Shown one piece after another: positions 45,958-64,000 of a stretch of 64,000 nucleotides of DNA. The stretch is from assembly GCA_022822905.1 (NCBI GenBank), contig JAJDYE010000030.1, positions 1 through 64,000 on the forward strand. Reading direction: 5' to 3'. This stretch comes from Acidimicrobiia bacterium. GTDB taxonomy: Bacteria; Actinomycetota; Acidimicrobiia; Acidimicrobiales; Bin134. A program made the position numbers and the translations under genes. Positions within the stretch are counted from its first letter, which is position 1. Each line of letters begins with the position of its first letter. The notes beneath the pieces were generated by a model. The model made no database searches. It saw only the letters and a program-made list of their open reading frames with translations, and was not told the origin of the DNA.

Positions 45958-47077
45958 GGCCCCGCCTGATTCTGGGGTCTAGGTACTGATAGGAGATGTC
46001 GATGATGGCGTTCAGCAGTACATAGCCCACCGCCAGCACCAGCACGCCACCCTGAACCACGGTGTAGTTCTTGGGGATCACGCCGAAGGCAACGATCAGC
46101 TTGCCCAACCCTTCAAGCCCGAAAATGGTCTCAATAATCACCGTGCCCCCGATGAGCCGGCCGAGGGTGATGCCGGCAATGGTGATGAGGGAGAACGACG
46201 ATGGCCGCAGCGCGTCACGGAACAAGATCCGCCACGTGGGCATACCCTTGGCCCGAGACGACAGCACGAACTGCTCCTGAAGCGTAGAAAGCATGTCGGC
46301 CCGCAGCAGCCGGGTAAATACCGCGATCTCGCTCAGCGCCAGGGCGAGCGCGGGCAAGAACAGTGAGCGGAGCTGCTCTCTCCAGCTGTCGTCGTAGCGG
46401 TGAGACGCGGTTCTGGGAAAGTCGGGCCACTGGATGAAAACCCAGAACAGTAGCCCGGCCACCACCAGAGCGGCGGCCAAGTACCCAGCCCATCCCGAGA
46501 AGTCCCTTCGCTCCTCCCACCATCGATTGATGGCCAGATAGACCAACCTCAGTGCAATCAAACCGACGATGATCAACCACAAATATCGAGGGACAGACTG
46601 TCGGAACACGAAGAAGAAGATGAACAGCAGGCCGGCCAGGAAAGTCGGTACCGAGATGAAGGTGAACATGGTGCCGCTCACCAATCGGTCGGCCCGATTG
46701 CCCGCGGCGTGGGCCGACCACACTCCCAAGAAGATGGAGATGGAGAACGACATGCCCAGCGCCATCACCGACAGACGCAGGGTGGGTCCCGCGTTGCGTT
46801 GCAACAAGTCGGAGACCGGCTCGTTGGGGGGGCGCAAGGACTGGCCCAAATCACCGGACAACGCGCCACCCAGCCAGTCCACATACCGATCAGTGATTGG
46901 CTTGTCCAAACCCAGCGACTTGCGGATGGCCTCCAGGTCTTCGATGGTTGCGTCCGTTCCCAAGGCGGCCGCCGCCGGGTCGCCAGGAATTAGATCTATC
47001 AGGAAGAACGTGGCCAGGGAAACGAGGAAGAGCACCGGCACGAGCCGGACCAGCTTCAAGCCGACCACTCGCAGCAC
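45950..47077 (-). CDS. Peptide/nickel-type ABC permease (OppB-like)
   Basis: A 375-aa permease with the DppB/OppB start VVGLKLVRLVPVLFLVSLATFFLIDLIPGDPA. The GLDKPITDRYVDWLGGALSGDLGQSL segment is followed by extra membrane helices in the middle (LWLIIVGLIALRLVYLAINR). The EAA loop is QFVLSSRAKGMPTWRILFRDALRP and the end YQYLDPRIR. Longer than typical OppB because of the inserted segment around residues 165-225. GTG at 47077. It pairs with the OppC-like gene. Confidence 0.9.
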   Translation of the reverse strand: MLRVVGLKLVRLVPVLFLVSLATFFLIDLIPGDPAAAALGTDATIEDLEAIRKSLGLDKPITDRYVDWLGGALSGDLGQSLRPPNEPVSDLLQRNAGPTLRLSVMALGMSFSISIFLGVWSAHAAGNRADRLVSGTMFTFISVPTFLAGLLFIFFFVFRQSVPRYLWLIIVGLIALRLVYLAINRWWEERRDFSGWAGYLAAALVVAGLLFWVFIQWPDFPRTASHRYDDSWREQLRSLFLPALALALSEIAVFTRLLRADMLSTLQEQFVLSSRAKGMPTWRILFRDALRPSSFSLITIAGITLGRLIGGTVIIETIFGLEGLGKLIVAFGVIPKNYTVVQGGVLVLAVGYVLLNAIIDISYQYLDPRIRRGRV

Positions 47078-47127
47078 GGTGCTCTTCCTCCCCTAGAGCT
47101 CTAAGAACTCAGTTTGAACAGATTTAC

Positions 47128-48972
47128 TTAGTTCTCCATGTAGGCATTGCCGAACAGGAACAAGGTGGCCATGGTGCGTTGCACGCCCTTGATGTCGGGA
47201 GTGAGCGCCAAGCCTTCTTCGTTCACCGACCAGATAACGCTGGGAAGGTGCTCGGACCAGACGCACTGCACCTCGGCCAGTGCTGCCTGCTGATCCTCCA
47301 GAGTGGCAGCCCGATACAGGTTCTCTAACGCGGCATCCATGTCCGGGTGGCCGAAACCGATCCGGTTGGATCTGCTTTCCGAGTGAAAGTTCTGGTTCAG
47401 CGACGAGATCCAGGTGGCCCCATCTTGGTTGCTTCCCCAACCTGCCATCTCATAATCGGCCTGGATGATCACCCGGGGAATGAGAACGGTGGTGATGCCT
47501 CCGTACTCCGCGGTCACGTCGAAACCGACTCGCTCCAACAGTCCCTCCACTGCCTGGCCGATAGCCGGGGCGGGATCTTGGTCGGTATAGACGAAGAACA
47601 GGGAGCCGTCCCAGCCGGTCTCGTCTTTCACCTCCTGCACCAGCGCAGCAGCGGCGTCGGGATCGTAGGCCGGCTCTAGGTCGGCGCACTCTTGAACAGC
47701 TGGAGACCAGAGCAACGTGCCTTCGTGAGCCAGTGCATTGGTCACAACTCCTGTGCCTTCAAAGGCCCGGTCGTTGATGATCTGGCGGTCGATGGCGTGG
47801 TGAACGGCCTGTCGAATCCGAAAGTCCTGGGCGATCCTCTCGGCGCCTCGCACGCCGTTGTTGAGGAGGAACAGTCCACCCACATTCTGGAGTTCGGTAT
47901 TCAAGACTGTGCCAGCTTCGCGGGCATCCGCAAACACTGTCGGGTCACGCAGGAAGGCAGCATTGAAATCGCCAGCCTGGAAGGCCTCCCAGTTGGCCCT
48001 AGAGCTGCCCGGGAAGGTGAACTCGATCTCCTCGATGCACACTGGCCCACCCCAGTAGTCATCGCGGGCCCTAAGCAGGGTCCGCACGCTGGGCTCCACT
48101 TCGACAACCTCGTATGGCCCGAAGCTGGCCGCGTTGAGCAGGTCGGGAGAAACTGACATCCGGTTGCGGACCAGCCTTTCAGCGCTGGCTTCTTCGGAGG
48201 CGTTAGCCGCCTCTTCCTCCAGCAACTGTGCGATAACCCGCGGGTTCACGATCATGCCGGCCTCATCTCCCAGCACCAGCGGGAACGTGGTCCACGGCTG
48301 TATGAGACGGAAGATGATGGTGTTGTCATCCACCACTTCGGTTGCCTCAAGATCGATGAGCCGCAGAGAACCCTCGATGGTGTTGGTCACACCGTTGCCC
48401 CGACCCTCGAGGAACCGCTGCATGGAGTCGACCACGTCTTGGGCGATCATCTCGTCACCGTTGCCGTAAGTGATGCCCGAGGGAATCACCAACGTCCATT
48501 CGGTGAAGTCGTCATTGGGAGTGAGCGACTCCGCCACATGGGGGTTGTACTGCCCAGCGTCGGGGTCGAAGGTCATCATGATGTCCCACACGTTCACCAG
48601 CTCGGTGCCGCCCACCAGTGATCCGCTACTAGCGGTCGGGTCCATGCTGGAGTTGGGCGAGAAGTTCGCGTAGTTGATCTTGGTGCCTGGAACCGTGGCC
48701 TCGCAGCCACCGGCCAACTCTTCCTCGGTCGGTACTGCGGCTTCGACGTCTTCCGCTTCTTCGATGGGAGCCGATATGGCACTGTCGTCGTCGCCGTCGT
48801 CGGCGGGCTCGGGCGCGGGATCGTCGTCGCCGTCGTCGGCGGGCTCGGCAGGCGCGGGATCGTCTGGAGCGGTTTCGACTCCGTCATCATCGTCGTTGCC
48901 GCAGGCCGCGGCCACCAGGCCGAGCACCATCAACAATGCCAGCAGCTTCAATAGCCATGAACGCATGTGCAT
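47128..48972 (-). CDS. ABC substrate-binding lipoprotein (OppA/DppA-like)
   Basis: A 614-aa extracytoplasmic solute-binding protein family 5 member. The signal ends LVAAACGND with lipidated Cys. Then comes a very acidic Asp/Pro linker of about 50 residues with DDGDDDPAPEPADDGDDD-like repeats. The binding domain follows, with a YNPHVAESLTPNDDFTEWTL segment, the TYGNGDEMIAQDVVDSM core and FRIRQAVHHAIDRQIIN. It delivers peptides or similar solutes to the two permeases downstream. The C-terminal part around DYEMAGWGSNQDGATW is normal. ATG at 48972; an ATG 6 bp on would also work. Confidence 0.92.
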   Translation of the reverse strand: MHMRSWLLKLLALLMVLGLVAAACGNDDDDGVETAPDDPAPAEPADDGDDDPAPEPADDGDDDSAISAPIEEAEDVEAAVPTEEELAGGCEATVPGTKINYANFSPNSSMDPTASSGSLVGGTELVNVWDIMMTFDPDAGQYNPHVAESLTPNDDFTEWTLVIPSGITYGNGDEMIAQDVVDSMQRFLEGRGNGVTNTIEGSLRLIDLEATEVVDDNTIIFRLIQPWTTFPLVLGDEAGMIVNPRVIAQLLEEEAANASEEASAERLVRNRMSVSPDLLNAASFGPYEVVEVEPSVRTLLRARDDYWGGPVCIEEIEFTFPGSSRANWEAFQAGDFNAAFLRDPTVFADAREAGTVLNTELQNVGGLFLLNNGVRGAERIAQDFRIRQAVHHAIDRQIINDRAFEGTGVVTNALAHEGTLLWSPAVQECADLEPAYDPDAAAALVQEVKDETGWDGSLFFVYTDQDPAPAIGQAVEGLLERVGFDVTAEYGGITTVLIPRVIIQADYEMAGWGSNQDGATWISSLNQNFHSESRSNRIGFGHPDMDAALENLYRAATLEDQQAALAEVQCVWSEHLPSVIWSVNEEGLALTPDIKGVQRTMATLFLFGNAYMEN

Positions 48973-49080
48973 TTCCCCCTCGTGGAACTTGGTTCCGACA
49001 CTCTAGGAAACCTGGGCGATGGGGGCAACAGAGACGCCCGACCTCACTTCAAGAGGGTGCAAGCGGGGGGAGTCGCGGCT

Positions 49081-49986
49081 TTAGATGAGAACCTCTTCGA
49101 AGAACTGCCGCATGATGGCGGCGCACTCTTCGGGCTGCTCCAGCTGGAGCATGTGGGTGGCGTCGGGCAGGAAGTCGTAGTCGACGCTGGAGATATCGCT
49201 GAGGTTCAGAGACGGCAGGTACGAAAAGGGCAGCGTGGGGTCGGCCCCGATCACCTTGACCGGACAGCGGACTTTGGCGAAGTCGATGAACGCTCCGAAG
49301 ACGCTGGCGTAGTCGATGATCTGCGCTTCGTACTCCCGAGGGCATCGCAGCTCGAAGCCTTCCCCGTCGGGCGACTCCCGCAGGGTGGAATCAGCCAGCA
49401 GGTCAACCGCCCCGGGAACTGCCGCCTTGTAGGTGGGGAATATCCCGAACAGTTCGGTGAACGCGCTCTTGGTCTTGAACCGATGGGTGCGGCGCCGGGC
49501 TGACTTCGCCATGCGGATCGCGGCTTCTTCGAAGTCTCGAAAGTTCCTGCCCGGCTTGCACAAGGGCGGGTCGAACAAGACGAGTGCAGCGTAGTCGCTG
49601 CCCTTGGATTCAGAAATGAGGGGCGTGAGGCATGACACGGAGTGGAATACGCCAACCTGCGGTTTCTTGCCGAATTGCCGGCCAATCTCCTCAAGTATTC
49701 GGTCATGATCGCCAACCAGCGTCGGAACACTGTGGTTTTCCAGGCCGCCCACCGCGTTCCAACCATGGTTCCTCATGTCGTAGACGATGAGGTCGAAGTC
49801 GTCGGTCAGGAGCGACCAGAACGGATAGTAGAGATCAATGGCCAGGCCATTGCCATGGCTGAGGATCAGCCGAGTTCCATCGGGGTTTCCGTGGCGGCGA
49901 AGTAAGACCGACGACTCTTCATCCATTCTCACTTCGTGGACAGACCGCGGCTCGGGAATGCTCCAAGCCGATTCTTGCTCCGTCAC
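49081..49986 (-). CDS. Alpha/beta hydrolase at the end of the PKS block
   Basis: A 301-aa alpha/beta-hydrolase fold protein. Oxyanion region ILSHGNGLAIDLYYPFW, early strand IVYDMRNHGWNA, nucleophile elbow VFHSVSCL (Ser, with His and Ser in place of the flanking Gly), acid in IGADPTLPF and catalytic His in PDATHMLQLEQPEE. It lies 2 bp after the phosphopantetheinyl transferase gene, last in the same-strand run from the PKS, so it could release or edit the acyl product like a type II thioesterase. That role is inference. GTG start at 49986. Confidence 0.8.
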   Translation of the reverse strand: MTEQESAWSIPEPRSVHEVRMDEESSVLLRRHGNPDGTRLILSHGNGLAIDLYYPFWSLLTDDFDLIVYDMRNHGWNAVGGLENHSVPTLVGDHDRILEEIGRQFGKKPQVGVFHSVSCLTPLISESKGSDYAALVLFDPPLCKPGRNFRDFEEAAIRMAKSARRRTHRFKTKSAFTELFGIFPTYKAAVPGAVDLLADSTLRESPDGEGFELRCPREYEAQIIDYASVFGAFIDFAKVRCPVKVIGADPTLPFSYLPSLNLSDISSVDYDFLPDATHMLQLEQPEECAAIMRQFFEEVLI

Positions 49987-49988
49987 GG

Positions 49989-50693
49989 TTACGGGCTTAC
50001 TTCATAGGCGATGGCGGCGGCGAACTCCCTCGTTCCCATATCCTCCAAGCACCAAGTCGTCTCGGGGATTTGAGCAAACTGGCAGATGCTCTTGGCCGCT
50101 CCCCGGCGCATGTCTTCGGGGATCTCCAATTCTGCGACCTTCATGGACAGGCCCTTGCCGTGGGCCTTCACGAGCGCTTCTTTGATCGTCCAGAAGCGAA
50201 AGAACTTATGAAGCTGCTGGCACCCGTCAAGCGATTCCAACTCGGCCTTCTCATGCGGGCTGAATACGCCTTCAATGAGGTTCTCGAGATTCCGGCGAGG
50301 GGCCCGCTCCTCAACATCCACACCTAGGCGGCCCCTGGGAGCCACGGCAACCAACCCGTGGTTGCCGCTGTGACTCACGTTGAAGCTGATGGAAGCAGGC
50401 AGGCCGTTGACCAGGGCAAACGGCTTGCCGTGTTTGGCGGCCTCGAACCCCAGCGATTCGTTTGGACAACCGAGTTGGCGGCCAAGAATGGCACGGAGCG
50501 CGGCGCGGCACAGCACATACCGCCGTTGAGCGGTTGGGGATTGAAAGCGCTCCCAGCGCGAGCGCTCTTCCCCGTCAAGCCACGTAAGGGCCTCGACTTC
50601 GCGCCCCTGATGGGCGGTCAGATCGACATGGAATACGGCAATAGCACCGATGCTTTTGAACCGGTGCCACCAGCTATCTGGGTCGGTGATCAA
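49989..50693 (-). CDS. 4'-phosphopantetheinyl transferase (Sfp type)
   Basis: A 234-aa Sfp-type enzyme that transfers phosphopantetheine from CoA to carrier-protein serines. Motifs: AKHGKPFAL, SISFNVSHSGNHGLVAVAP, LGVDVEE (magnesium-binding acids) and FFRFWTIKEALVKAHGKGLS. Two-domain length typical of secondary-metabolism PPTases. The TTG start at 50693 overlaps the ACP stop (TTGA), an unusual start kept by coupling. It should activate both the free ACP and the ACP inside the PKS. Confidence 0.93.
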   Translation of the reverse strand: MITDPDSWWHRFKSIGAIAVFHVDLTAHQGREVEALTWLDGEERSRWERFQSPTAQRRYVLCRAALRAILGRQLGCPNESLGFEAAKHGKPFALVNGLPASISFNVSHSGNHGLVAVAPRGRLGVDVEERAPRRNLENLIEGVFSPHEKAELESLDGCQQLHKFFRFWTIKEALVKAHGKGLSMKVAELEIPEDMRRGAAKSICQFAQIPETTWCLEDMGTREFAAAIAYEVSP

Positions 50694-50932
50694 CCAGCGG
50701 ATTCGAGGTGGTTGATGAGGTCTTGAGGTGTCAAGAGCTCGGCGAACTCCTCAGCGGAGATGTCGGTGCCGAACTCCTGGTTGACCATTTGCCAGAACGC
50801 CACGATGTCGGAAGAAGCGACACCTGCATCGGCAACGTTGCGAGACAGGTCCAAGGGCTGACCTGCTTCTCGTCCATCAATCTCCAGCGTCTGGTCGACG
50901 ATGGACCTGATTCGCTCTTCAGTTGAAGACAT
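50690..50932 (-). CDS. Free-standing acyl carrier protein
   Basis: An 80-aa carrier protein. The attachment site reads VADAGVASSDIVAFWQMV, where GVASS replaces the usual G.DSL; one of the two Ser is the likely pantetheinylation site. The helix IV region AEEFAELLTPQDLINHLE is normal. GGAG lies 6 bases before the ATG. It is 60 bp after the PKS, whose last module has no carrier of its own, so it is probably the partner of that terminal KS. Confidence 0.82.
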   Translation of the reverse strand: MSSTEERIRSIVDQTLEIDGREAGQPLDLSRNVADAGVASSDIVAFWQMVNQEFGTDISAEEFAELLTPQDLINHLESAG

Positions 50933-50992: not shown

Positions 50993-53900
50993 TCAATCGT
51001 CCTCCGAGCCCGTGGACTGTGGCGGCGCTTCTACCCAGAAGCTCTGCCGCTGGAACGGGTAGTCGGGCAGCGAGATCCGACGACGCTCCTCGCCCTGGAA
51101 CAAGCTCTCGAATTGAATCGCCTGCCCATCGGCATATTCCGCCGCAATGACTGCAAGCGGGTCATGGCCGCTCTCAGGCGCCGCCGCACCGCTCCGAACT
51201 CGCTGCTCGCCGACCTCATGGAGAGCGTTGAGTTGCTGGCGGAGCGACTTGGCGTCGCTGAACACCAACCCAGCCCGATGCGAGAAGTGGCTTCGCCCCA
51301 TGCTTGCCGTCCACGCCAGGTCGGAGAGCAGCGGATCGGTTGCCGCACCGGCTGCCGAAAGCTCCTCAGCGTGCTCGTCGAGCCAGGAGAGATACCGCCG
51401 GGCGAGCTCGCTCAACGCCTCCGGTGTCTTGGCCGACAACGGCAGCAGCCGTCTTGTCGGCGGCTCCGATCCCCCATCGAGCGGCGATTCCCCGGCTGCC
51501 ACGGCTTGCGGTGACCCCACCGGCTGCCACGGCCTTCTTATTCCATCGGAATCATCAGCAGTGGATTGGTACCCCTCAACCACGATGTGCGAATTGGCGC
51601 CGGAGATTCCGAATGAGTTGACCGCGGCCAACGATTGGCGGCCCCGGTCTCCTGGCCATTCAATCGGCTCGGTGGCCACACTCAGCGGCATCCTCGCCCA
51701 ATCGATCTCGGGACTCGGCTCGCTGAAGTGCAGGTGCTTCGGCAGCGTCCCATGCCTCATCCCCAGCACCACCTTGATCAAGCTGGCCATCCCGGCCGCG
51801 CCTTCGAGGTGCCCGATGTTGGTCTTCACCGATCCGATCCATACCGGGCGGTCTTCCTCGCGCCCCTGGCCATAGACGGCGGCAATGGCGCTGGCCTCCA
51901 CCGCATCTCCCACTGCGGTGCCTGCTCCGTGTGCTTCCACATAGTCCACCTCATCCGCTGAGATGCCAGCTCGGGCCAGCGCCTCCACCATGACCCGCTC
52001 CTGGGCCCGACCGCTGGGAACGGTGACGGCAAGGCCCGCCCCGGTCTGGCTCACCGCCGACCCTCGGACAACCCCCCAGATCCGATCGCCGTCGGCCTCG
52101 GCATCGCCCAACCGCTTCAGCACCACAACGCCGCATCCCTCGCCGCGGACATAGCCGTCGGCCGAGGCGTCAAACGACTTGCACTGCCCCTGCGATGACA
52201 GCATGTCGGCCTCGACCAGCGCATTGGTGACCGCAGTCGACAAGATGGCGTTCACGCCCCCCACCAGGGCGATGTCGGTCTCCCCTCTCCGAAGGCCCTC
52301 CATCGCTTGGTGTACGGCAAACAGCGACGACGCGCAGGCCAAGTCCAGCGGCACTGCCGGTCCCTCGATGCCCAGCGAGAACGCCACCTTTCCCACGGTC
52401 ACGCTTCCCGCGGTATTGAGATGACCCCCAGCTCGACCGCTCCTCTGGATGACGCCCCGGTATTCGCTTACACCGAGACCGATATACAGCCCGCTGCGGC
52501 TTCCCTTCAGACGTTCGGGATCGATAGCGGCATCCTCAACCGCCTGCCAGCTGGTCTCCAGCAATAGCCGTTGCAGCGGATCAATCGACCACGCCTCCCT
52601 CGGCGCAACCCGGAAGAACTGAGGATCAAAGGCGTCGAGTCCCTCGATGAACGAACCCCTGCGGTAGATGGCATCGTCGGCGGCCGGATCGCCGAGGACC
52701 CCCTCCCATGAACCGCCGTCTTGGCGTCCGTCGGTAACCGTGTTCTCGCCGGCCTCCAGCAGGCGCCAGAAGGCCGATAGGTCCTCGGCTCCGGGGAACC
52801 GACAGGCCATGCCAACGATGGCGATCCCCTCGTCGTCCGACTGGGCAGCCCGGGGCCGGGACACCTCGACCGGTTCTTGGGGTTCGGCGACTTCGCCAGC
52901 CTGTCCGAACTCCTGGGACAGGTGACGGGCCAGTCCAGTGACGTCCGGGTAGTCGAAAATCGCGGTGTTCGACACGGTGTACTCGCCGGCAAACGCCCGG
53001 TTCAGCCGGTTCCGCAGTTCCACCACCATCAGCGAGTCCATGCCCAAGTCGGCGAACACAGCCGATTCGTTGGGCAGGTCGGGCAACCGCATCACAGCTT
53101 GCAGCTCTAGTTGCAGGTGCGAGATCAACTTTTCCTCGCGCTCCGCGGCGGCGGCATTCCTGAGGTCGTCCAACAGATCGACCGACGATTCCTGGGATTC
53201 GCCAGACGCATCAGCCGACAGCAGATCCTCCAAGAAGAGCGATCGGGCGTCGGGGCCTTCGGAGACCACCTGCCAGTCGACCGCCGCCACCATGCCCATG
53301 GTCACGTCTTGGCGCACCAGATGGTCGAACGCCTTCAATCCCTGCTCGGGGGTGAGCCACCCCGTGCCCGCTGCTTCGAGTTGCCCGGCGATCCGCTCCC
53401 GGTGCTCCTCGGCCTCACCCAGCCCCGACCACGCTCCCCAGGCAATCGACTGCCCGGGCAGGCCCAGTGAACGGCGGTGGGCGGCGAGCTGGTCCAAGAA
53501 CGCGTTGGCGGCGGCGTGGTTCGACTGTCCTGAATTGCCCAAGACCCCGGCCACACTGGAGAACAACACGAACAGATCGAGATCACGGTCTTCAGTGGCC
53601 CGATGCAGATGCCAGGCCCCTAACATCTTCGGCCACAGCACCTCCTCGAACTTCTCCCAGGTCTGGTTGGTGAGCGCGCCGTCGGACAGCACGCCCACGC
53701 TGTGGATCACACCCCCGAGTGGCGGTAGATCGGCGTCGATCCTGGCCAGCATCTGGTCGATGGCGGATGGGTCGGTCACATCGGCCAGCTCGACCTCCAC
53801 CGCCACTCCCTGTCGACGGAGCTCGCTGATCGCCTCCTCCGCCTCGGGATCGGGGGGCCGCCTCCCGTTCAACACGATGGCCCCCGCGCCTCGGCCGGCC

Positions 53901-56900
53901 AGCCATCTGGCGACCGCGCAGCCAATGCCTCCCAGGCCGCCGGTCACCAGATAGGTCCGGTCGTCCCTCAACCGTCCCGTCTCAAGGGGGGAACCGGCCA
54001 GAACCAGCTTGCCGATGTGCCGGGCGGCCTGCATGTATTTCATCGCCGACCCCGCCTCGGCCAGCGACCACCGAGTGTGTACCAGCGGCGCCAGCTCGCC
54101 GGCTGCCACCCGGGCCACCACGCGCCGGAGGGCGTCTCCGGGCACCGCGGGAGTCTGTTCTTTGAGAACGTCGAGCTCCAAGATCCAGTAGCCCACGTCG
54201 GGCCGGGCCGCGGCCATCTCCTCTTCGCTGAGGATGTCCACCCGGGCCAACTCCACGAAGCGGCCGCCTTGAGCCAGGCAGGACAGGCTGGCGTCGATGA
54301 AGCCCGGTCCAGTCAGGCTGTTGAGCACCACGTGGACGCCTGCGCCCCCGGTGGCTTCGAGGATTTCCTCCGCGAAATCAGTCCGACGGCTGTCGAACAC
54401 ATGATCCACGCCCAGCGACCGCAGATATGCCTGCTTCGGAGCGCTCGTGGTGGCGAACACCTCGGCCCCCGCCGCCTGGGCCAACTGCACCGCGGCCAGC
54501 CCCACCCCTCCCGTTCCGGCGTGGATCAGCACCCGTTCGCCTGCCTTCAGGTCGGCGAGGTCGAAGGAAAGCGCAGACGTAACAAAGACGGTGGGCAACG
54601 TGGCCAGCGCGGCGGACGAAATGCCCGAGGGGGCCAGCGCCACCAGCTCCTCGGTGGTGACCACCTCGGAGCCCAGCGTGCCGAACCCCAATCCCGCCAC
54701 TCGGTCGGCCACCAAGACCGTGGACACGTCGGCACCCACCTCAACCACATGGCCGCAGAACTCCTCGCCCAACAAGCCCGCCCCGATGACGCCCAACGAG
54801 CGGAACATGTCCAAGAAGTTGAGCCCGGCGGCTTCCACCGCCACTCGTACGTCCCGCTCTCCCAACTGCACTGGCGGGTGAGGCTCTGGCTTGACCTCTT
54901 CCAGGGCACCGCCAGAGTCAGCGGCCAGCAACCAGCTCACTTCTCCCGCCGGATCAGGCAGATTCGGGCGACCCGACCCCACACCAGCCCGATCCAGCCG
55001 GGCCGCCTGGCGCAGTCCCTGGCGGTAGGCGATGTGGGTTTCTGCGTCGGGATAAAGCAGCTCATTGGCCAAATCGGAGAGCGGCACCACACTGGCAGGG
55101 TCCAAATCGATCATCCTGGGGTTGAGGTGAGGCGCTTCGCGGCCCACCACCTTCCCAAGGCCCCAGAGCATGGCCCCGGCGATGCCCTCGGCGGGCTCGT
55201 GCTCCAGCACTTGGGCCCCCTGGGTCACCAGCCAAACCCCGTTTGCGGGAGCGGCGTCGGCATCACCCATCCCCTGCAACAGGGCCAGCGCGCTCTTGCC
55301 AGCCTGCGCTGCGTCTTCCGCAAGCTGCTCGGTGCCGGCCTGCGACCCCCGGCCGTCCAGTGACACCAGGTGGACAACGCCGCGGAGTGCGGCATCAGGG
55401 GAAAGTCCTTCGAAGAGTGACTGCCACGACTCCCGTTGGCTCATCGCCAGGGAAACCCGGACAACTCCGGGCTCGTCCAGCAGGGGCTGATCATTGATCG
55501 GAGCGCCATCGCCAACCAGCGCCACCGTCTGGTTCCGGGCCGCCAACTCCTGCGCGAGGTTCTCGGCTGAATCACCAGAATCCGATGCCAAGATCCATAC
55601 GCCGGGCTGCTCGCTCACCTCCGCGGGTCCCTGGGCCACAATCACCCCGCGATCAGGCTGTCGGCCGGTGTCAGGCGGGTCCACGCCCAGAACCTCTGCC
55701 GCTGGGAAACCGGAGTCTCCCAGCGCCCGAAGCCATACGTCGGGGCTGGTCAGGGCGTGATGGGGGCGATAGTGGTCGGCAAACCGCCACCAACCGTCGA
55801 GCGGTCCGAAAGAAAGGTCCAGCCAGCCCAGGCCGCGGAGGGTCTCCAACGCCACCAGATGGCCCGACGGCGCGAGCAGCCGTCGGCAATTTCCCAGCGT
55901 CTCATCCAGGAACTGGGTGGCGTGCAGCACGTTGGAGGCGATAACCAGGTCGTAGCCGTGGCGGTCGAAGCCCTGTTCCACCGGGTCGACCTCGATGTCC
56001 AGCACCCGGTAGTCGATCGACGCCTCCGCACCGCCGAATCGCCTCTCCGCCTCGGCGAAAAAACCGGCCGAGATGTCGGTGTAGGTGTAGTCGAAGCGCC
56101 CAGCGGGAAGCTCGGGCAGCACCGACGCCGTCGCCGACCCAGTGCCCGCCCCCACCTCCAGCACGCGCAGCCGTCGGCCCTCCGGCAACTCGGCCAGCAG
56201 CGCTGCCACCGCGTCGCCCAGCATCCGGTTTGAGGCCTGGGCCATCGGCGCCTTCACATACAGATCGGCGGCGCTGGGCTCACCGCTGCCAAACAGCAAG
56301 GTCAGCGGATCGGCGTCGCCCACCACCACCTCGGCCAATGCCCCGGCAGACCGCCGGAACAGCCCGATCTCCATGGTTCCGTGCGGGTACTGGCCCTCCA
56401 TCCAGTCGGCCCGGGCCGCCGGATCGCCGGCCAGCACCTCGGGCAGGGGATCATCGGAGCCGACTCTCACGGTGAACTCGTCGCCGACTTCCTCCAGCGC
56501 GCCGGCTTTGGCCATCATCTCGAGCATCCGGCGGAACAGGCGTCCATGCTCGGGGGCAACCCCCAACTGCTCCCTCAACTCATCGGGCACCACCGTGTCG
56601 CCCGCGGTGCGCACCCACCCCAGCCGATCCAGGGCCAAACGGGCGTACGACCACGCCAGCCGCTCGAGGTCGGCCAGAAACCCGACCCGGCTCTCGGCCT
56701 CAACCCCCTCTGCCGCCAAGTACTGGGTGAACGGCTCTGAGCCCGCGGCAATGGCACTCGGTTGGGGCAGGAAATCGGCCGGCAATATCCCTGGGGCGAG
56801 AGGGCTGTCTCGCCAGACGATTTCATAGAGGAGATCGTCGAGGCTCCCAGCAGTCGACAACAGCGCGGCCCGCGTGGCCCTCTTCACCGTATAGCCGCTC

Positions 56901-59900
56901 AAACCCCCGAGCACGGTGCCGCGCTGGTCGTAGAACACCAGATCTCCGGCAAGAACCTCAGGTGTTCCCTCTGACGGTTCGGCGGCTTCCTTCAGCCGCG
57001 CATGGCATACCAACTGGTCGGGCATGGGTCCGGTGAGCCACAAGCGCTCCCATCCGAAGGGCAGATAGGCCACCCCGTCATCGCCACCAGCCCCGCTGCG
57101 AGCCTCGGCCATGACCTGGAAGCAGCCGTCCAAGAGCAGCGGATGCACTTCGATGCCGCCTCGGTCAATGGTCTCGGGCAGCGACAATTCCCCCACCGCT
57201 TCGCCTTCGGAGGCCCACAGCGCCCGCAGGGTGCGAAACGGCGCACCGAGCTCGACCCCTGCGCCCGTACGAGAGCGGTAGAACTCCGAGACGTCTCTGG
57301 GTTCCAACCCGGCCTTCAGTCCATCCAAGTCGACGCTTTCGGCCCCCTCAATCCGCCCGGCCTCCGAATGGGCCAGGCCCTCGGCGTGCCGCGTCCATCC
57401 GTCCTCACCCGGGCCCCGGCTGTAGATCTCGAATCGAGCGGGGGTCCTCGGATCGACCTCGTCCAGAACGAACTGCACTTGGCGACCCTCGGGCGCCGCC
57501 CCTTCATCGGAGTCCGGCTCAGGAAAGACCATCGGGCTGAGCAGCTGGAGATCTTCCACCACAAAGCTGCGGCCGGTTGGGGTTGATGGCCGACCGTTTC
57601 CAGTGGCAGCCAGCGCCGAGACCGCCATGGTTCCGTACAGCGCGCCCGGTGTGATCACCTGCCCATACACCCGGTGGTCACTCAGCCATGGCGGATCGGA
57701 GGGATCCATTTCCGTCTCAAGCTGAAGCTCGCCTCGGGGGGATTCGTGGCAAATGCCGAGCAAGGGGTGCCCCGCGCCGGATCGACGGCGTTTTGCGGCT
57801 TCCACCCAGTGGCGTTGGCGTTGGAACGGGTAGCCCGGAAGCGAGAGACGGCGTCGGGACTCGCCTCCGTACAGGCCCTCAAAGCTGATATCGAGCCCAG
57901 ACTGGTACGCCCCCACCACCGCGTCGAGGAACCCGCAGCCATCCTCGGGGGTCGGTGTTCGATCCGATGGCCGCTTCATGCTCGACACCACAGTCGGCTC
58001 GGCCACCGCGGCCTGGGCGGGCCAGGACAGAACCGTCATGGGGCCGAGCACTGCCCCGGGACCGACTTCGATGACCGCGTCCACCCCCAATTCGGCCAGC
58101 GCCTGCACGCTGTTGCGAAACTCCACCGGCTGGCGGGCCTGGCGACACCAATACGCCCCGTCCATCGCCTGGCCATCTTCCAGCACCTGGCCCGTCATGC
58201 TGCTCACCACGGTGAGCGAAGGCGCGGCCACCGCAAGCTCGGTGAGCAGCCCCTCAATGCCGTCCAGAATCGGTTCCACCATGGCGCTGTGGTATCCGGC
58301 GCTCTTCTCCAGTCGCCGGACCCGCACCTCTTCGACCTCAAAACGCTGGAGCAGCGCCTCAACATCGGCGGTCGGTCCGCTCACCATCAAGTGGGCCCCG
58401 TTGTCGGCGGCAATGGACAGCCGCGAGTCACCCGAGGCGGCGCATTGCTCCTCCACTGCGGCGGCCAGCACTGATTCCGGGGCGAACACTGCGGCCATCG
58501 CGCCGGGCTCTGGCAGCTCCGACATTAGCTTGCCCCGCCCAGCGGCGAGACGAAGGCCGTCCTCCAGGCTGAGCACGCCGGAGGTATGAGCCGCCGCGAT
58601 CTCCCCCAGGCTGTGCCCCACCACCGCATGGGGCCGAACCCCCAGGCCCGACCACAGTGCGGTGAGCGCACACTCCAACGCGTATATGGCGGGCTGCGTC
58701 CACGCCGGATCGTCCAGGTCTCTGTCGGCGTCGGGCCACCCGAACATCACCCCCAGCAGCGACGTGCCCCGCTCGTGGCGAAACACCTCCTCGCAACGAT
58801 CCAAGATCGCCCGCACCACCGGCTCGCTCTGGTAGAGCGACTCCCCCATGCCCACCCACTGGCTGCCCTGCCCGGTGTAGGCAAAGGCCACCTTTGGTGC
58901 GACTGACGACCCGGCCACCTCATCATCAGATTCCACCAGCGCGTGGAGCTTGTCCCGCAGCGACTCGGCGTCGGTGAACACCACGCCGGCCCGATGGGAG
59001 AAATGGCTGCGGCCGATCCCGGCCGTCCAGGCAGTGTCAGCCAGCACCTCCCCCGACGGGGGACCGATATCGTCGTCCAACCACCTGAGATAGCCCTGAG
59101 CCAGCTCCTTCAGAGCTTTGTCCGACTTCGCCGACAAGGGCAGCAGCCTCGCGGAGCGCGCCATGGCGGGGGCGTCCACCGGCATGGCCGCTGCGTCATC
59201 CGCGGTGGCGACGGCAACAGGCAGAGGAGGACCTGTCGGCCGCCGTTCCTCGCCGGGCTGGGCTGGTTCTCGGTCGCCCACCCCGTAGGCCTCCACGATG
59301 ACGTGGGCGTTGGTGCCCGACCAGCCGAACCCGCTCACCCCGGCAATGGCCATGCGGTCGGAGTGGCGAGGCCAAGGGGTGGGCTCAGCCGTCACCTTCA
59401 GCGGCACCTGGTCCCAGTCGATCGCCGGGGTCGGATTCTCATAGTGCAGATGCGGGGGGATCACGCCCTGCTTCATCGACAACATCACCTTGACCAGGCC
59501 GGCGACACCGGCGGCTGGCTCCAAGTGGCCGACGTTGGTCTTCACCGACCCGATGAGCAGCGGTTGATCAGCATGGCGCTCTTGGCAATAGGCGCCAACG
59601 GCAGCCTCCAACTCAATGGGGTCACCCACTGGGGTCCCGGTGCCGTGCGCCTCCAGGTAGTCCACCTCAGAAGGCTGAACCCCCGACCGGGCCAACGCCT
59701 CGGTGATCACCAGTTCTTGGGCCACCCCGTTGGGCACGGTCAACCCGGTGCTGGCTCCGTCCTGGTTCAGCGCCGATCCCCGGATCACGCCCCAGATCCG
59801 GTCTCCGTCGGCCTCGGCATCGCTCAGCCGCTTCAGCACCAGGATGCCGCAGCCCTCGCCTCGCACATATCCGTCGGCCGCAGCGTCAAACGTCTTGCAC

Positions 59901-60592
59901 TTCCCATCGGGGGCCAGCATCCCGGCATTGCCCCGCAATTCGAACAGCCGACCCGACAGGATCACGTGTACCCCTCCGGCCAGGGCCAGGTCGGCCTCAT
60001 CCCGCTGGAGCCCCGATACCGCCTGATGCACCGCGGTCAGCGAAGAGGAGCAGGCGGTGTCCACCGCCAGTGCCGGACCTTGCAGCCCCAAGGCAAAGGC
60101 CACTCGCCCGATGGCGGTGTTGAAGGAGGTGCCGCTCACCGAATACAGGCTGACCGCCGCCTCGGACGAGGCGCTGTTGGCCAAGATCAGGGCGCGGTAG
60201 TCGTAGTTGCTGATACCGGCATACACCCCGGTGCGGCTGCCTCGCAGTCCCTCGGGATTGATACCCGCGTCCTCAAGGGCCTGCCAGCTGGTCTCCAGCA
60301 TCAACCGCTGCTGGGGATCCAGCAGCTGGGCCTCAACAGGCGAGATTCGGAAGAACGAGGCATCGAATTGGTCGATGCCGCTGATGAATCCGGCGAAGCG
60401 ACAGGCAACACTCTGAACGTCGGCGTCTTGGAACAGCTCTCCGATTCGCCCCACACCAGAGCCGGGAACCCCCTCGCTTACCGCGTTCTCACCCGCTTCC
60501 AGCAAACGCCAGAACTCCGACAGGCCGTTAGCACCGGGAAACCGGCAGGCCATTCCGACAACCGCGATGGATTCCCCTGTTAGCGAAGCCAT
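50993..60592 (-). CDS. Type I PKS: KS-AT-DH-MT-ER-KR-ACP-KS, second AT deleted
   Basis: A 3199-aa cytoplasmic synthase. KS1 (~8-435): Cys181 in DTACSSS, His316, His356. AT (~568-870): Ser661 in GHSLGE, His768 in AGYHS, so malonyl-type is likely. DH (~942-1235): His973 in DHRVYGQVITP, Asp1155. C-methyltransferase (~1440-1600): LEVGAGTGSAT. ER (~1895-2200): LIHAGTGGVGLAAVQLA. KR (~2210-2390): TGGLGGIG, with the usual catalytic Tyr replaced by His2359 (GQSNHAAANAF). ACP (~2485-2565): Ser2520 in LGMDSL. KS2 (~2588-3008): Cys2753 in DLACASS, His2888, His2928. After KS2 come a KS-AT linker (to ~3125) and at once a post-AT linker (~3145-3188, SLPDYPFQRQSFWVE), with no AT between. One full round of reducing, methylating extension is encoded. 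ATG at 60592. Confidence 0.95.
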   Translation of the reverse strand: MASLTGESIAVVGMACRFPGANGLSEFWRLLEAGENAVSEGVPGSGVGRIGELFQDADVQSVACRFAGFISGIDQFDASFFRISPVEAQLLDPQQRLMLETSWQALEDAGINPEGLRGSRTGVYAGISNYDYRALILANSASSEAAVSLYSVSGTSFNTAIGRVAFALGLQGPALAVDTACSSSLTAVHQAVSGLQRDEADLALAGGVHVILSGRLFELRGNAGMLAPDGKCKTFDAAADGYVRGEGCGILVLKRLSDAEADGDRIWGVIRGSALNQDGASTGLTVPNGVAQELVITEALARSGVQPSEVDYLEAHGTGTPVGDPIELEAAVGAYCQERHADQPLLIGSVKTNVGHLEPAAGVAGLVKVMLSMKQGVIPPHLHYENPTPAIDWDQVPLKVTAEPTPWPRHSDRMAIAGVSGFGWSGTNAHVIVEAYGVGDREPAQPGEERRPTGPPLPVAVATADDAAAMPVDAPAMARSARLLPLSAKSDKALKELAQGYLRWLDDDIGPPSGEVLADTAWTAGIGRSHFSHRAGVVFTDAESLRDKLHALVESDDEVAGSSVAPKVAFAYTGQGSQWVGMGESLYQSEPVVRAILDRCEEVFRHERGTSLLGVMFGWPDADRDLDDPAWTQPAIYALECALTALWSGLGVRPHAVVGHSLGEIAAAHTSGVLSLEDGLRLAAGRGKLMSELPEPGAMAAVFAPESVLAAAVEEQCAASGDSRLSIAADNGAHLMVSGPTADVEALLQRFEVEEVRVRRLEKSAGYHSAMVEPILDGIEGLLTELAVAAPSLTVVSSMTGQVLEDGQAMDGAYWCRQARQPVEFRNSVQALAELGVDAVIEVGPGAVLGPMTVLSWPAQAAVAEPTVVSSMKRPSDRTPTPEDGCGFLDAVVGAYQSGLDISFEGLYGGESRRRLSLPGYPFQRQRHWVEAAKRRRSGAGHPLLGICHESPRGELQLETEMDPSDPPWLSDHRVYGQVITPGALYGTMAVSALAATGNGRPSTPTGRSFVVEDLQLLSPMVFPEPDSDEGAAPEGRQVQFVLDEVDPRTPARFEIYSRGPGEDGWTRHAEGLAHSEAGRIEGAESVDLDGLKAGLEPRDVSEFYRSRTGAGVELGAPFRTLRALWASEGEAVGELSLPETIDRGGIEVHPLLLDGCFQVMAEARSGAGGDDGVAYLPFGWERLWLTGPMPDQLVCHARLKEAAEPSEGTPEVLAGDLVFYDQRGTVLGGLSGYTVKRATRAALLSTAGSLDDLLYEIVWRDSPLAPGILPADFLPQPSAIAAGSEPFTQYLAAEGVEAESRVGFLADLERLAWSYARLALDRLGWVRTAGDTVVPDELREQLGVAPEHGRLFRRMLEMMAKAGALEEVGDEFTVRVGSDDPLPEVLAGDPAARADWMEGQYPHGTMEIGLFRRSAGALAEVVVGDADPLTLLFGSGEPSAADLYVKAPMAQASNRMLGDAVAALLAELPEGRRLRVLEVGAGTGSATASVLPELPAGRFDYTYTDISAGFFAEAERRFGGAEASIDYRVLDIEVDPVEQGFDRHGYDLVIASNVLHATQFLDETLGNCRRLLAPSGHLVALETLRGLGWLDLSFGPLDGWWRFADHYRPHHALTSPDVWLRALGDSGFPAAEVLGVDPPDTGRQPDRGVIVAQGPAEVSEQPGVWILASDSGDSAENLAQELAARNQTVALVGDGAPINDQPLLDEPGVVRVSLAMSQRESWQSLFEGLSPDAALRGVVHLVSLDGRGSQAGTEQLAEDAAQAGKSALALLQGMGDADAAPANGVWLVTQGAQVLEHEPAEGIAGAMLWGLGKVVGREAPHLNPRMIDLDPASVVPLSDLANELLYPDAETHIAYRQGLRQAARLDRAGVGSGRPNLPDPAGEVSWLLAADSGGALEEVKPEPHPPVQLGERDVRVAVEAAGLNFLDMFRSLGVIGAGLLGEEFCGHVVEVGADVSTVLVADRVAGLGFGTLGSEVVTTEELVALAPSGISSAALATLPTVFVTSALSFDLADLKAGERVLIHAGTGGVGLAAVQLAQAAGAEVFATTSAPKQAYLRSLGVDHVFDSRRTDFAEEILEATGGAGVHVVLNSLTGPGFIDASLSCLAQGGRFVELARVDILSEEEMAAARPDVGYWILELDVLKEQTPAVPGDALRRVVARVAAGELAPLVHTRWSLAEAGSAMKYMQAARHIGKLVLAGSPLETGRLRDDRTYLVTGGLGGIGCAVARWLAGRGAGAIVLNGRRPPDPEAEEAISELRRQGVAVEVELADVTDPSAIDQMLARIDADLPPLGGVIHSVGVLSDGALTNQTWEKFEEVLWPKMLGAWHLHRATEDRDLDLFVLFSSVAGVLGNSGQSNHAAANAFLDQLAAHRRSLGLPGQSIAWGAWSGLGEAEEHRERIAGQLEAAGTGWLTPEQGLKAFDHLVRQDVTMGMVAAVDWQVVSEGPDARSLFLEDLLSADASGESQESSVDLLDDLRNAAAAEREEKLISHLQLELQAVMRLPDLPNESAVFADLGMDSLMVVELRNRLNRAFAGEYTVSNTAIFDYPDVTGLARHLSQEFGQAGEVAEPQEPVEVSRPRAAQSDDEGIAIVGMACRFPGAEDLSAFWRLLEAGENTVTDGRQDGGSWEGVLGDPAADDAIYRRGSFIEGLDAFDPQFFRVAPREAWSIDPLQRLLLETSWQAVEDAAIDPERLKGSRSGLYIGLGVSEYRGVIQRSGRAGGHLNTAGSVTVGKVAFSLGIEGPAVPLDLACASSLFAVHQAMEGLRRGETDIALVGGVNAILSTAVTNALVEADMLSSQGQCKSFDASADGYVRGEGCGVVVLKRLGDAEADGDRIWGVVRGSAVSQTGAGLAVTVPSGRAQERVMVEALARAGISADEVDYVEAHGAGTAVGDAVEASAIAAVYGQGREEDRPVWIGSVKTNIGHLEGAAGMASLIKVVLGMRHGTLPKHLHFSEPSPEIDWARMPLSVATEPIEWPGDRGRQSLAAVNSFGISGANSHIVVEGYQSTADDSDGIRRPWQPVGSPQAVAAGESPLDGGSEPPTRRLLPLSAKTPEALSELARRYLSWLDEHAEELSAAGAATDPLLSDLAWTASMGRSHFSHRAGLVFSDAKSLRQQLNALHEVGEQRVRSGAAAPESGHDPLAVIAAEYADGQAIQFESLFQGEERRRISLPDYPFQRQSFWVEAPPQSTGSEDD

Positions 60593-60611: not shown

Positions 60612-62339
60612 CTAACCCGTGCCCTTGACCTGAACCGTCACCACATCCAGGCCGTGGTATTTCTGATGGTGGACCGTTGAGGCGTAGTGCCGCAACAGGC
60701 GAAGCGAGATCTCGCCTTCCTCAATCCCCTCGGATTCCTCGCTCAAATACGCCAGCCGGTCTTCGAGGTTCTCCTCATCGAACACGGCCAGAAACTCCAT
60801 CTCCACTGAACCGGCATCAGGACGGGCCTGGATTATCAGACGAGCGGTTTCGTCGCTGGTCTCATGCTCCTCCATCCGCAGAAGGCTCATCAGCGTTTCC
60901 TCGCCAGCCGAGCGCAGCCGCAGGCTGGAAGCCTCGTTCCAGCCAATCTGATCGGCTACTCCCTGGAGGAATTCGTCGATCTTCCCCAGCGAGGAGAAGT
61001 CGAGCTCGACGGCCAGCCGGCTGGGCCGGTGCGGGCTGGTCAAGTCCAAGAACACGGTCAGCACAACGGAGACAACCGCCCCCACCATCACGCCGTTGTC
61101 CAAGAGCGCCCCCCATGTGGTGCCCAGCAAGTCGGCGAATATGGTCTGGTTCTCCAGCCCGACCCCCAGCGAGAACGCCACCCCCACCACCATCGCCTTC
61201 TGGGCGTCGAGTCCGTCGCGCATCACCGTTTGGATGCCCCCCACGAACAGGAGCCCGATCGCCGACAGGACGTAGGCCCCCATCACCGGGCTCGGGATCA
61301 CCGTCAATACGGCGGTCAGCTTGGGGAAGAATGCCAGCAGGGCGAACAGCGCCCCGGCGGCGAACCCCACGCTGCGGGCGGCCACCCCGGTCAGGGTGGT
61401 CAGCTGCACGCTCTTGGACGAATAGACGGTGGTGGGCGGGGTCCCGGCCAGGCCGGAGAAGAAGATGCCCAGTCCGTTGGTGTTGAGCGAGCCCTGGACC
61501 AGCCGGAAGTCGGTCACCCGCGGCCGGCGCCACGAGGCCTGCTGGATGGCGACGCTGTCGCTGATGTTCTTGATGCCGCCCACCAGCGTCACCACCACGA
61601 ACACCGGCAGCAGCGCCCAGAATCCGGCGCCGGGAGTCAGGTCGAATCCCGGGGCGCCGCTGTTGGGGACGCCGAACCAGGGGTCTTCGATGACGCGCTC
61701 GAAGTCGAACGCCCCGAAGAACGCGGCGGCCACACAGCCCGCTCCCATGCCGATGATGGGCGACCAGAGCCGCCAGGCCCCGGTGACCTTCAACGCCAGA
61801 ACCACCGTTGCGATCAGCGTGACCAGCGCGATGAGCGGGCCGGCGGCATCTGAGGTGCCCTCGGGCACCTCCGGCACCCGGTCGAGGGCGATGGGCAAGA
61901 CGGTGGCGGCGATGAGCATGAGCACGGTGCCGGAGACCACCGGGGTGATGATCCGGCGCAGCAGGGGCAGCCAGAACGACAACAGGAGATAAAACAGCGA
62001 GGAGACCACCACGAGGCTGGCCAGCAGGCTCGGTCCCCCCTCGTTCAGCGCCAGCACTGAGATGGCCACGAAGTTGGTGGTGACCCCCATGAGAAGCACA
62101 TGGCCGGCGCCGAATCTTCCGATCCGAGTGGCCTGCAAGGCGGTGAGTGTCCCGGAGATGATCAACGCGGCGAACACCGCCCAAGACAGGTAGGAGTCGC
62201 CCTGGCCTCCCGCTCGTGCGGTGATGGCCACGATCAGCACGATCCCCAGCATGTTGGCCATCACACCCTGGGCGCCCACGGCGATTGCCACCAGCGGTGG
62301 GCAGGGATCGTTGGGCTCGTAGCGGATGGCCTCGTTCAT
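60612..62339 (-). CDS. NCS2-type permease with C-terminal ATPase-like domain
   Basis: A 575-aa protein. Residues ~1-440 form a 12-14-helix NCS2 (xanthine/uracil) permease: GHVLLMGVTTNFVAISV, VVTLVGGIKNISDS, and NTNGLGIFFSGLAGTPPTTV in place of the family core motif. Residues ~445-575 are soluble: FSSLGKIDEFLQGVADQIGW, LRLRSAGEETLMSLL, DEENLEDRLAYLSEE and SLRLLRHYASTVHHQKYHG. The layout recalls RsbW-type HATPase domains with the G1 box lost; that assignment is tentative. Substrate unknown; a purine or pyrimidine is only a family guess. ATG at 62339, 19 bp before the PKS start, so it is probably in the same operon. Confidence 0.82.
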   Translation of the reverse strand: MNEAIRYEPNDPCPPLVAIAVGAQGVMANMLGIVLIVAITARAGGQGDSYLSWAVFAALIISGTLTALQATRIGRFGAGHVLLMGVTTNFVAISVLALNEGGPSLLASLVVVSSLFYLLLSFWLPLLRRIITPVVSGTVLMLIAATVLPIALDRVPEVPEGTSDAAGPLIALVTLIATVVLALKVTGAWRLWSPIIGMGAGCVAAAFFGAFDFERVIEDPWFGVPNSGAPGFDLTPGAGFWALLPVFVVVTLVGGIKNISDSVAIQQASWRRPRVTDFRLVQGSLNTNGLGIFFSGLAGTPPTTVYSSKSVQLTTLTGVAARSVGFAAGALFALLAFFPKLTAVLTVIPSPVMGAYVLSAIGLLFVGGIQTVMRDGLDAQKAMVVGVAFSLGVGLENQTIFADLLGTTWGALLDNGVMVGAVVSVVLTVFLDLTSPHRPSRLAVELDFSSLGKIDEFLQGVADQIGWNEASSLRLRSAGEETLMSLLRMEEHETSDETARLIIQARPDAGSVEMEFLAVFDEENLEDRLAYLSEESEGIEEGEISLRLLRHYASTVHHQKYHGLDVVTVQVKGTG

Positions 62340-62352
62340 GATTCTGATTGCG

Positions 62353-64000
62353 CTACCGCGAGCCTCGGACCTGCACGGTCACGACGTCCAGCCCGTGGTA
62401 CTTCTGGTGATGGACCGACGAGGAGTAGTGGCGAAGCAGGCGAAGCGACACATCCCCCTCCTGCAAGCCCTCGGCCTCTTCGGACAGGTATGCCAACCGG
62501 TCCTCGAGGTTCTCCTCGTCGAACACCGCGAGGAACTCCATCTCCACCATTGCGGCCTCGGGGCGGGCCTGGATGATCAACCGGGCGGCCTCCTCGGCAT
62601 CCGCCTCGGGCTGCATCAGGCTGGTCAGCAGCTCTTCACCGGCCTCATCGGGTCGCACCAGGCTCAGCAGGGCCTCCTCTCCGGCGGAGCGCAGCCGCTG
62701 GGCAGAAGCCTCGTCCCAGCCGCTCCTAGCCGCCAGTTCTTGCAGGAACCGATCGATCTCAGGAAGCGACGAGACGCTGAGCTCGACTTCCAAGCGGCTG
62801 CGCCGCTGCGGGCTGGTCAGGTCCAAGAACACGACCATCGCCAACGCGGCCAATGCCCCCATCAGCATGCCGTTGTCGAGCAGCAGGCCCCATTTGTGAC
62901 CCAGGAGATCGGTGAAGATGGTCTGGTTGTCGAGTCCCATGCCCAGCGAGAAGGCAACCCCCACCACCAGCGCCTTCTGCCCGTCGAGCCCGTCCTGAAC
63001 CACCGTGCGGATACCGATCACGAAGAGCAGGGCAATGGTCACCAATAGATAGGCGGCCACCACCGGGCTGGGAAGGGTGAGCAGGAACACGGTCAGCTTG
63101 GGAAGAAAGGCCAGAGCAAGCAGGGTGCCGCCGACCAAATAGCCGATGCGGCGAGCCCCCACCCCGGTGAAGCTGATGAGCGACACGCTGGTGCCCGAGT
63201 AGACGGAGGTGGGCGGAATGCCGAAGATGCCGGCCGACAAGATGCCCAGTCCATTGGTGTTGAGTGAGCCTTGAACCAGCCGGAAATCGGGAACTTGGGG
63301 GCGAAGCGAGGAGGCCTGCTGTATGGCCACGCTGTCGCTCACGTTCTTGACCCCGCCCGCCAGTGTTACCACCACGAACGCGGGCAGAAGCGACCAGAAC
63401 CCCGCCCCCGGAGTCAGGTCGAATCCGGGGAAACCGCCAGAGTCGGGAATGCCCACCCAGGCCGCGTCGCCAACCGGGCTGACCTCGTAGGCGCCGAACA
63501 GCACAGCCACCACGCCTCCGAAGACGATCCCAATGAGCGGTGACCACAATCGCCATGCCCCCGATGCCCGCATGTGCAAAAGGATGAACACCGCCAGCGT
63601 CACGAAGGCAATGGTCGGTCCCGCGGCCTCGGGCGCGTCGGCAGGCACCTCTTCCACCCGGTCGAGTGCCACCGGCAAGACGGTGCCGGCGATCAGCAGG
63701 AGGACCGTGCCGGTGACCACCGGCGTGATGACCCGGCGCAAGAACGGCAGCCAGAAGGCCAGCACCAGGTAGAACAGCGAGGCCGCCACCGTGAGGCTGG
63801 CCAATAGCTCCGGGCCGCCCTCGGCCAGGGCCAACACCGAGATGGCGATGAAGTTCGGGGTGGGGCCCATGATCAAGATGTGCCCGGCGCCGAACCGCCG
63901 GAACCGGCTGGCCTGCAATGCGGTGAGCACTCCGGCGATGATCATGGCCGCGAACAGCGACCACGAGAAATATCCGGCGTCTTGGCCCCCCGCCCGGGCG
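62353..64000 (-). CDS. NCS2-type permease with C-terminal ATPase-like domain (partial, paralogue)
   Basis: A tandem paralogue of the preceding permease. The frame runs off the right edge: codons at 63946-63999 read ARAGGQDAGYFSWSLFAAM, matching ARAGGQGDSYLSWAVFAAL of the other copy, so only ~30 N-terminal residues are missing. It has the same permease core (VVTLAGGVKNVSDSVAIQQA, NTNGLGILSAGIFGIPPTSV) and the same C-terminal domain (LRLRSAGEEALLSLV, DEENLEDRLAYLSEE, HYSSSVHHQKYHGLD). It carries a longer Glu-rich insert in the tail than its twin. It ends 13 bp before the second copy. Confidence 0.82.
   Translation of the reverse strand, partial: ARAGGQDAGYFSWSLFAAMIIAGVLTALQASRFRRFGAGHILIMGPTPNFIAISVLALAEGGPELLASLTVAASLFYLVLAFWLPFLRRVITPVVTGTVLLLIAGTVLPVALDRVEEVPADAPEAAGPTIAFVTLAVFILLHMRASGAWRLWSPLIGIVFGGVVAVLFGAYEVSPVGDAAWVGIPDSGGFPGFDLTPGAGFWSLLPAFVVVTLAGGVKNVSDSVAIQQASSLRPQVPDFRLVQGSLNTNGLGILSAGIFGIPPTSVYSGTSVSLISFTGVGARRIGYLVGGTLLALAFLPKLTVFLLTLPSPVVAAYLLVTIALLFVIGIRTVVQDGLDGQKALVVGVAFSLGMGLDNQTIFTDLLGHKWGLLLDNGMLMGALAALAMVVFLDLTSPQRRSRLEVELSVSSLPEIDRFLQELAARSGWDEASAQRLRSAGEEALLSLVRPDEAGEELLTSLMQPEADAEEAARLIIQARPEAAMVEMEFLAVFDEENLEDRLAYLSEEAEGLQEGDVSLRLLRHYSSSVHHQKYHGLDVVTVQVRGSR

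Follow-up and report, generated by a model that had tools for sequence, protein, structure and literature searches.

In the strict sense, NCS2 nucleobase transporters carry a glutamate in TM8 (E356 of UapA) and a Q/E-N-x-G signature in TM10. The SLC26/SulP transporters, which have a related 7+7 fold, are described in PMC6497670 with a regulatory C-terminal STAS domain, drawn from the same anti-sigma/anti-anti-sigma pair as the RsbW-type proteins. A permease is also known from polyketide synthase (PKS) clusters: the sections of Della Sala et al. 2013 (PMC3908369) used here present SupE (ABE03914) as the "permease" of the sponge-symbiont sup cluster (sponge symbiont ubiquitous PKS), and report from Plakortis simplex ORF17, a permease of 557 aa located beside swfA, whose best match is SupE (44%). 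In the same sections, ORFs for anti-anti-sigma factors lie close to the Plakortis SupE-like permease on both sides. No tail on SupE or ORF17 is mentioned there, and in the literature searched we found no earlier report of an RsbW-like tail or of an NCS2 protein with a HATPase or RsbW domain.

The window, a stretch of 64,000 nucleotides from an Acidimicrobiia genome, ends with two tandem NCS2 (PF00860) transporters, copies A and B, separated by 13 bp (Table 1). Their matches to the Xan_ur_permease profile reached 134.8 and 112.3 bits, respectively, against a cut-off of 27. Like SupE and ORF17, which are permeases of similar size adjoining sponge-symbiont PKS genes, they lie next to a PKS, and from context and size we infer that they are SupE homologues. 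The window differs, however, in having two tandem copies, and the tailed family described below includes subgroups that are not linked to a PKS. A third tailed copy (copy C) is present on another contig of the same genome (C10:1456-3222). Upstream of copy B, at about 64200-65000 of the contig (G000:C20), two small ORFs appear by eye to be antitoxin-like and PIN-type toxin-like.

On the minus strand, the gene order is B, A, PKS, acyl carrier protein (ACP), 4'-phosphopantetheinyl transferase (PPTase) and alpha/beta hydrolase; the last of these could possibly act in product release. A methylating PKS stands here beside a SupE-like permease, with the ACP, PPTase and hydrolase. The sup type is defined by a mono-modular methylating PKS, and in comparison with this the window PKS has an additional terminal KS. 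The gene families of the neighbours were assigned by Pfam at the related locus L136, and the window frames were matched to the L136 homologues. Genes of peptide-type ABC transporters (for a binding protein and for permeases) flank the PKS cluster on both sides, one set at window positions 44899-49002 and one at L004:6898-10876, the two sets being roughly 24-40% identical to each other.

Table 1. Features of the window that are discussed in the text (positions on the window, minus strand throughout).
Feature	Position	Strand	Remarks
Alpha/beta hydrolase, open frame	49084..50001	-	63% identical to L136 homologue
4'-phosphopantetheinyl transferase, open frame	49992..50750	-	47% identical to L136 homologue
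Free acyl carrier protein, open frame	50693..50932	-	45% identical to L136 ACP
Type I PKS, 3199 aa, KS-AT-DH-MT-ER-KR-ACP-KS	50993..60592	-	start 19 bp past the stop of copy A
Tailed NCS2 permease copy A (SupE-like)	60612..62339	-	575 aa, complete; PF00860 E 4e-39
RsbW-like cytoplasmic tail of copy A	60615..61034	-	residues 436-575
Codons of E480-E481 of copy A	60897..60902	-	N-box Glu kept; Asn at +4 replaced by Ser
Codon of K257 of copy A	61569..61571	-	place of UapA E356, TM8 substrate site
Tailed NCS2 permease copy B (SupE-like)	62353..64000	-	588 aa; gene start at contig position 64119, past the window; PF00860 E 3e-32
RsbW-like cytoplasmic tail of copy B	62356..62814	-	71% identical to the tail of copy A

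Both copies continue after the permease core into a common soluble tail. The original prediction had given its length as about 130 residues, and the measured value is about 140 aa; the two motifs that it described as almost unchanged, DEENLEDRLAYLSEE and HHQKYHGLD, do not differ at all between the copies. The tail is conserved about as well as the permease, with an A/B identity of 71% over 140 aa versus 64% for the core.

The profile of the tails compared with the PDB sequences gave chance matches only (best E 0.27), and the fold was therefore reached through structure prediction. An AlphaFold2 model built on an alignment of 59 tails has the element order E-H-H-E-E-H-H-E-E, with a pLDDT of 76, a pTM of 0.72 and low confidence at residues 1-10 and 110-118. 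In a Foldseek search of this model against the PDB, all the 19 matches at E <= 0.001 were anti-sigma factors of the RsbW/SpoIIAB/UsfX group (best E 4.9e-7), and in VIA-align the model gave Z 15.9 with RsbW 6m37_C (rmsd 2.0, 113 of 115 residues aligned) versus Z <= 7.5 with histidine kinases. The tail of Azospirillum weakly matched HPTransfase (PF10090), a candidate that was set aside because RsbW stands well above the other GHKL groups in VIA-align.

An hhalign comparison, independent of the structure model, was made between 124 tails and RsbW homologues of the window's own genome and of related genomes: it gave P 7e-5 over 118 columns, and none of the 20 control families came below 0.068. A narrower choice of tails gave a weak profile-profile result (7%), as against 63% for the wider set of 124 tails. 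Among the 59 tails, weak matches were found to HATPase_c_2 (13 tails, best E 3e-4) and to the NCBIfam RsbA anti-sigma family (9 tails, best 3e-5); copy B scored 12.8 bits with HATPase_c_2 (PF13581), under the cut-off of 27.4. A GHKL fold of RsbW type, as had been suspected from the shape of the tail, is thus supported by the predicted model and fold search, with which the controlled profile-profile comparison and the weak Pfam and NCBIfam matches agree.

In the predicted model, the tail shares with the RsbW/SpoIIAB/UsfX kinases the fold, the order of the elements, the domain length and the N-box Glu. Unlike them, it is fused to a transporter and has lost the ATP motifs. The N-box Glu (E481) is kept in all main-family tails scored, but four residues after it Ser (66%) or Thr (19%) stands in 85% of the sequences and Asn in at most one; across the family, the regions of the G1 (DxGxG) and G2 (GxGL) boxes are devoid of any conserved Gly. 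The doubt already expressed over the DxGxG box was well founded, and the term "HATPase" is not supported in its catalytic sense. Because the N-box Asn and the Gly boxes are lost, ATP chemistry in the tail, and with it kinase activity, appears improbable. That the tail, in spite of its unusual motifs, still works as an RsbW-type protein kinase dependent on ATP, for which one could cite the nearest fold and the retained N-box Glu, is accordingly hard to believe, as the N-box Asn and both Gly boxes are gone throughout the family.

At the same time, E480, E481, N524, D527, H558 and D565 are 98-100% conserved, and the N-D-H combination of the tail is present in 118 rows. This conservation would imply that a functional surface has been retained, and the tail looks more like a docking or regulatory domain than like an active kinase.

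The membrane core has the fold of UapA and UraA, the NCS2 xanthine/uracil transporters. Indeed, the top Foldseek matches of the full model were of UapA/UraA type (UraA 2e-15), and the permease matched UapA in sequence with E 5e-26; the sequence matches to these transporters end before the tail. The substrate site, however, is different: copies A and B, and 57 of the 59 rows of alignment A6, present Lys at the place of UapA E356, no row out of 59 has Gln at the place of Q408, and in copies A and B the Gln-Asn of the nucleobase signature (UapA Q408/N409) is lost. Judged by sequence, copies A and B would therefore not belong to the NCS2 nucleobase transporters as strictly defined. Copy C has kept the TM8 Glu and is without the Gln at the Q408 place. 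The TM8 residue varies by subgroup (K 90, Q 12, E 11, D 6, R 3, H 2, others 2), and the occurrence of the same tail on transporters whose substrate sites differ in this way points to a common regulatory function of the tail rather than to cargo binding by it.

The near invariance of E480/E481, N524, D527, H558 and D565 in all clades, with E481 at the N-box place as expected for a retained pocket, would also fit a small-molecule sensor, in which the old ATP pocket has been rebuilt for a nucleotide, a nucleobase or a pathway product and gates the transporter without a protein partner. We regard this as a tentative possibility. Against it, these residues stay constant while those of the substrate site vary from transporter to transporter, so that the sensed ligand would have to differ from the cargo.

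The survey of NCS2 proteins carrying the tail, proposed in the original prediction, retrieved 76 loci with the tail among relatives from many phyla. The tail was present in 19 of the 22 genomes of the window's genus, in 19 of the 296 of its class, and in 28 of the 245 of the class of a Dehalococcoidia MAG (G584), with two to six copies each; six genomes of other groups have two to eight tailed copies. The genome to which the Candidatus Binatia locus L142 belongs (L250) carries eight tailed copies, three of them clustered on one strand; the TM8 residues differ among the copies. Tail and transporter occur together more often than by chance and are nearly always in one reading frame, the exceptions being short or split frames. 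Readthrough was considered for the in-frame TAG of some copies; in L043, the one case inspected, the frame ends there, and the codon is read as a normal stop.

In the tree built on the permease columns only, a single branch with a support of 99 parts the tailed from the untailed NCS2 proteins, the latter being a sample from the same phylum, so that a wider sample could alter this result. The tailed branch takes in remote proteins of Azospirillum and Thiodictyon. A plasmid search with copy A matched the permease part only, and it led to the remote proteobacterial tailed relatives. A different NCS2 fusion was seen in L079, L085 and L070, untailed permeases of the same phylum with a C-terminal OHCU decarboxylase domain (uric acid catabolism). 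The tail is thus a common C-terminus of one NCS2 branch, as a caveat to the original prediction had envisaged; the known role that the caveat also supposed was not found.

An alternative is a passive assembly module that the branch has inherited, serving dimerisation or stability with no signalling role. Both the RsbW/SpoIIAB proteins and the NCS2 transporters are dimeric, and in the SupE-like clade the tail is conserved to about the same degree as the permease core (0.64 versus 0.62). We consider this explanation unlikely, as a set of polar and charged residues (E, E, N, D, H) held almost without change exceeds the needs of a dimer interface, and in the RsbW family the fold is that of a regulatory partner.

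The duplication beside a PKS is part of a wider association. Within 6 kb of the 76 loci, we found a PKS in 43 cases, a hydrolase in 31, a PPTase in 21 and an ACP in 12, and in five phyla or more the same kind of permease joins the set of PKS, ACP, PPTase and hydrolase. Two related clades of the tree hold most of the PKS-linked copies; they include Acidimicrobiia, Chloroflexota, Latescibacterota, Gemmatimonadota, Binatota and Opitutales, a distribution that is consistent with horizontal spread. Most of the bins with the PKS set appear to come from sponges. The initials in the bin names RHO, COS, IRC and APA (about 30 of the 76 loci) would fit the sponges studied in PMC8163846, in the main text of which these names were not found.

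Other tailed subgroups have different neighbours, including DUF1330 genes. At four loci (L219, L224, L225 and L237), corresponding to four genomes of the Dehalococcoidia survey, the tailed NCS2 gene forms an operon with the genes of a beta-carbonic anhydrase and of a STAS-bearing SulP transporter, with gaps of about 30-80 bp. This arrangement suggests inorganic carbon as the cargo of the subgroup. An adjoining STAS gene was considered as a general rule and rejected: such a gene was nearby in only 2 of the 76 loci, and none was found within the window.

Taking together fold, motif loss and neighbourhood, we propose that the tail, having an RsbW fold without ATP motifs, is a C-terminal regulatory docking domain that gates a small-molecule transporter linked to the PKS, a reading to which we assign a probability slightly better than even (roughly 55%). 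According to this proposal, an RsbW-fold domain would have lost its ATP-binding motifs and would have been fused C-terminally to a distinct NCS2 branch, as STAS was on SLC26/SulP, with the difference that the latter carry the STAS half of the pair and the tailed branch the RsbW-like half. The tail would bind a protein partner or a ligand via E480/E481/N524/D527/H558 and so gate transport. The cargo would not be a nucleobase but a molecule connected with the PKS, small and possibly anionic. Since the substrates of NCS2 transporters are small molecules, a long-chain product is unlikely to be exported in this way.

As for the partner, the STAS fold, whether in a free anti-anti-sigma protein or in the corresponding domain of a SulP transporter, would be the likeliest single class; this can be put forward only tentatively, on the basis of the Plakortis cluster, the SulP operon and the 2 loci out of 76. 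A bolder version, which we hold to be rather improbable, would make the tail a membrane-borne partner-switching device, in which a pseudo-anti-sigma domain, depending on the transport state, binds or lets go of a STAS-fold partner, be it a separate protein or part of a neighbouring SulP.

The reason why an anti-anti-sigma fold (STAS) is found on SLC26/SulP transporters is poorly understood, and the presence of the opposite half of this regulatory pair, the RsbW type, on NCS2 transporters of related fold would offer a second test case. The finding also gives a name to a tail that Pfam and NCBIfam do not assign, and a way of approaching the SupE-like permease that belongs to a PKS cluster ubiquitous, according to PMC3908369, among sponge symbionts. 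If the partner-switching version were true, it would, in symbionts of many phyla, link transport with the metabolism of polyketides or of inorganic carbon.
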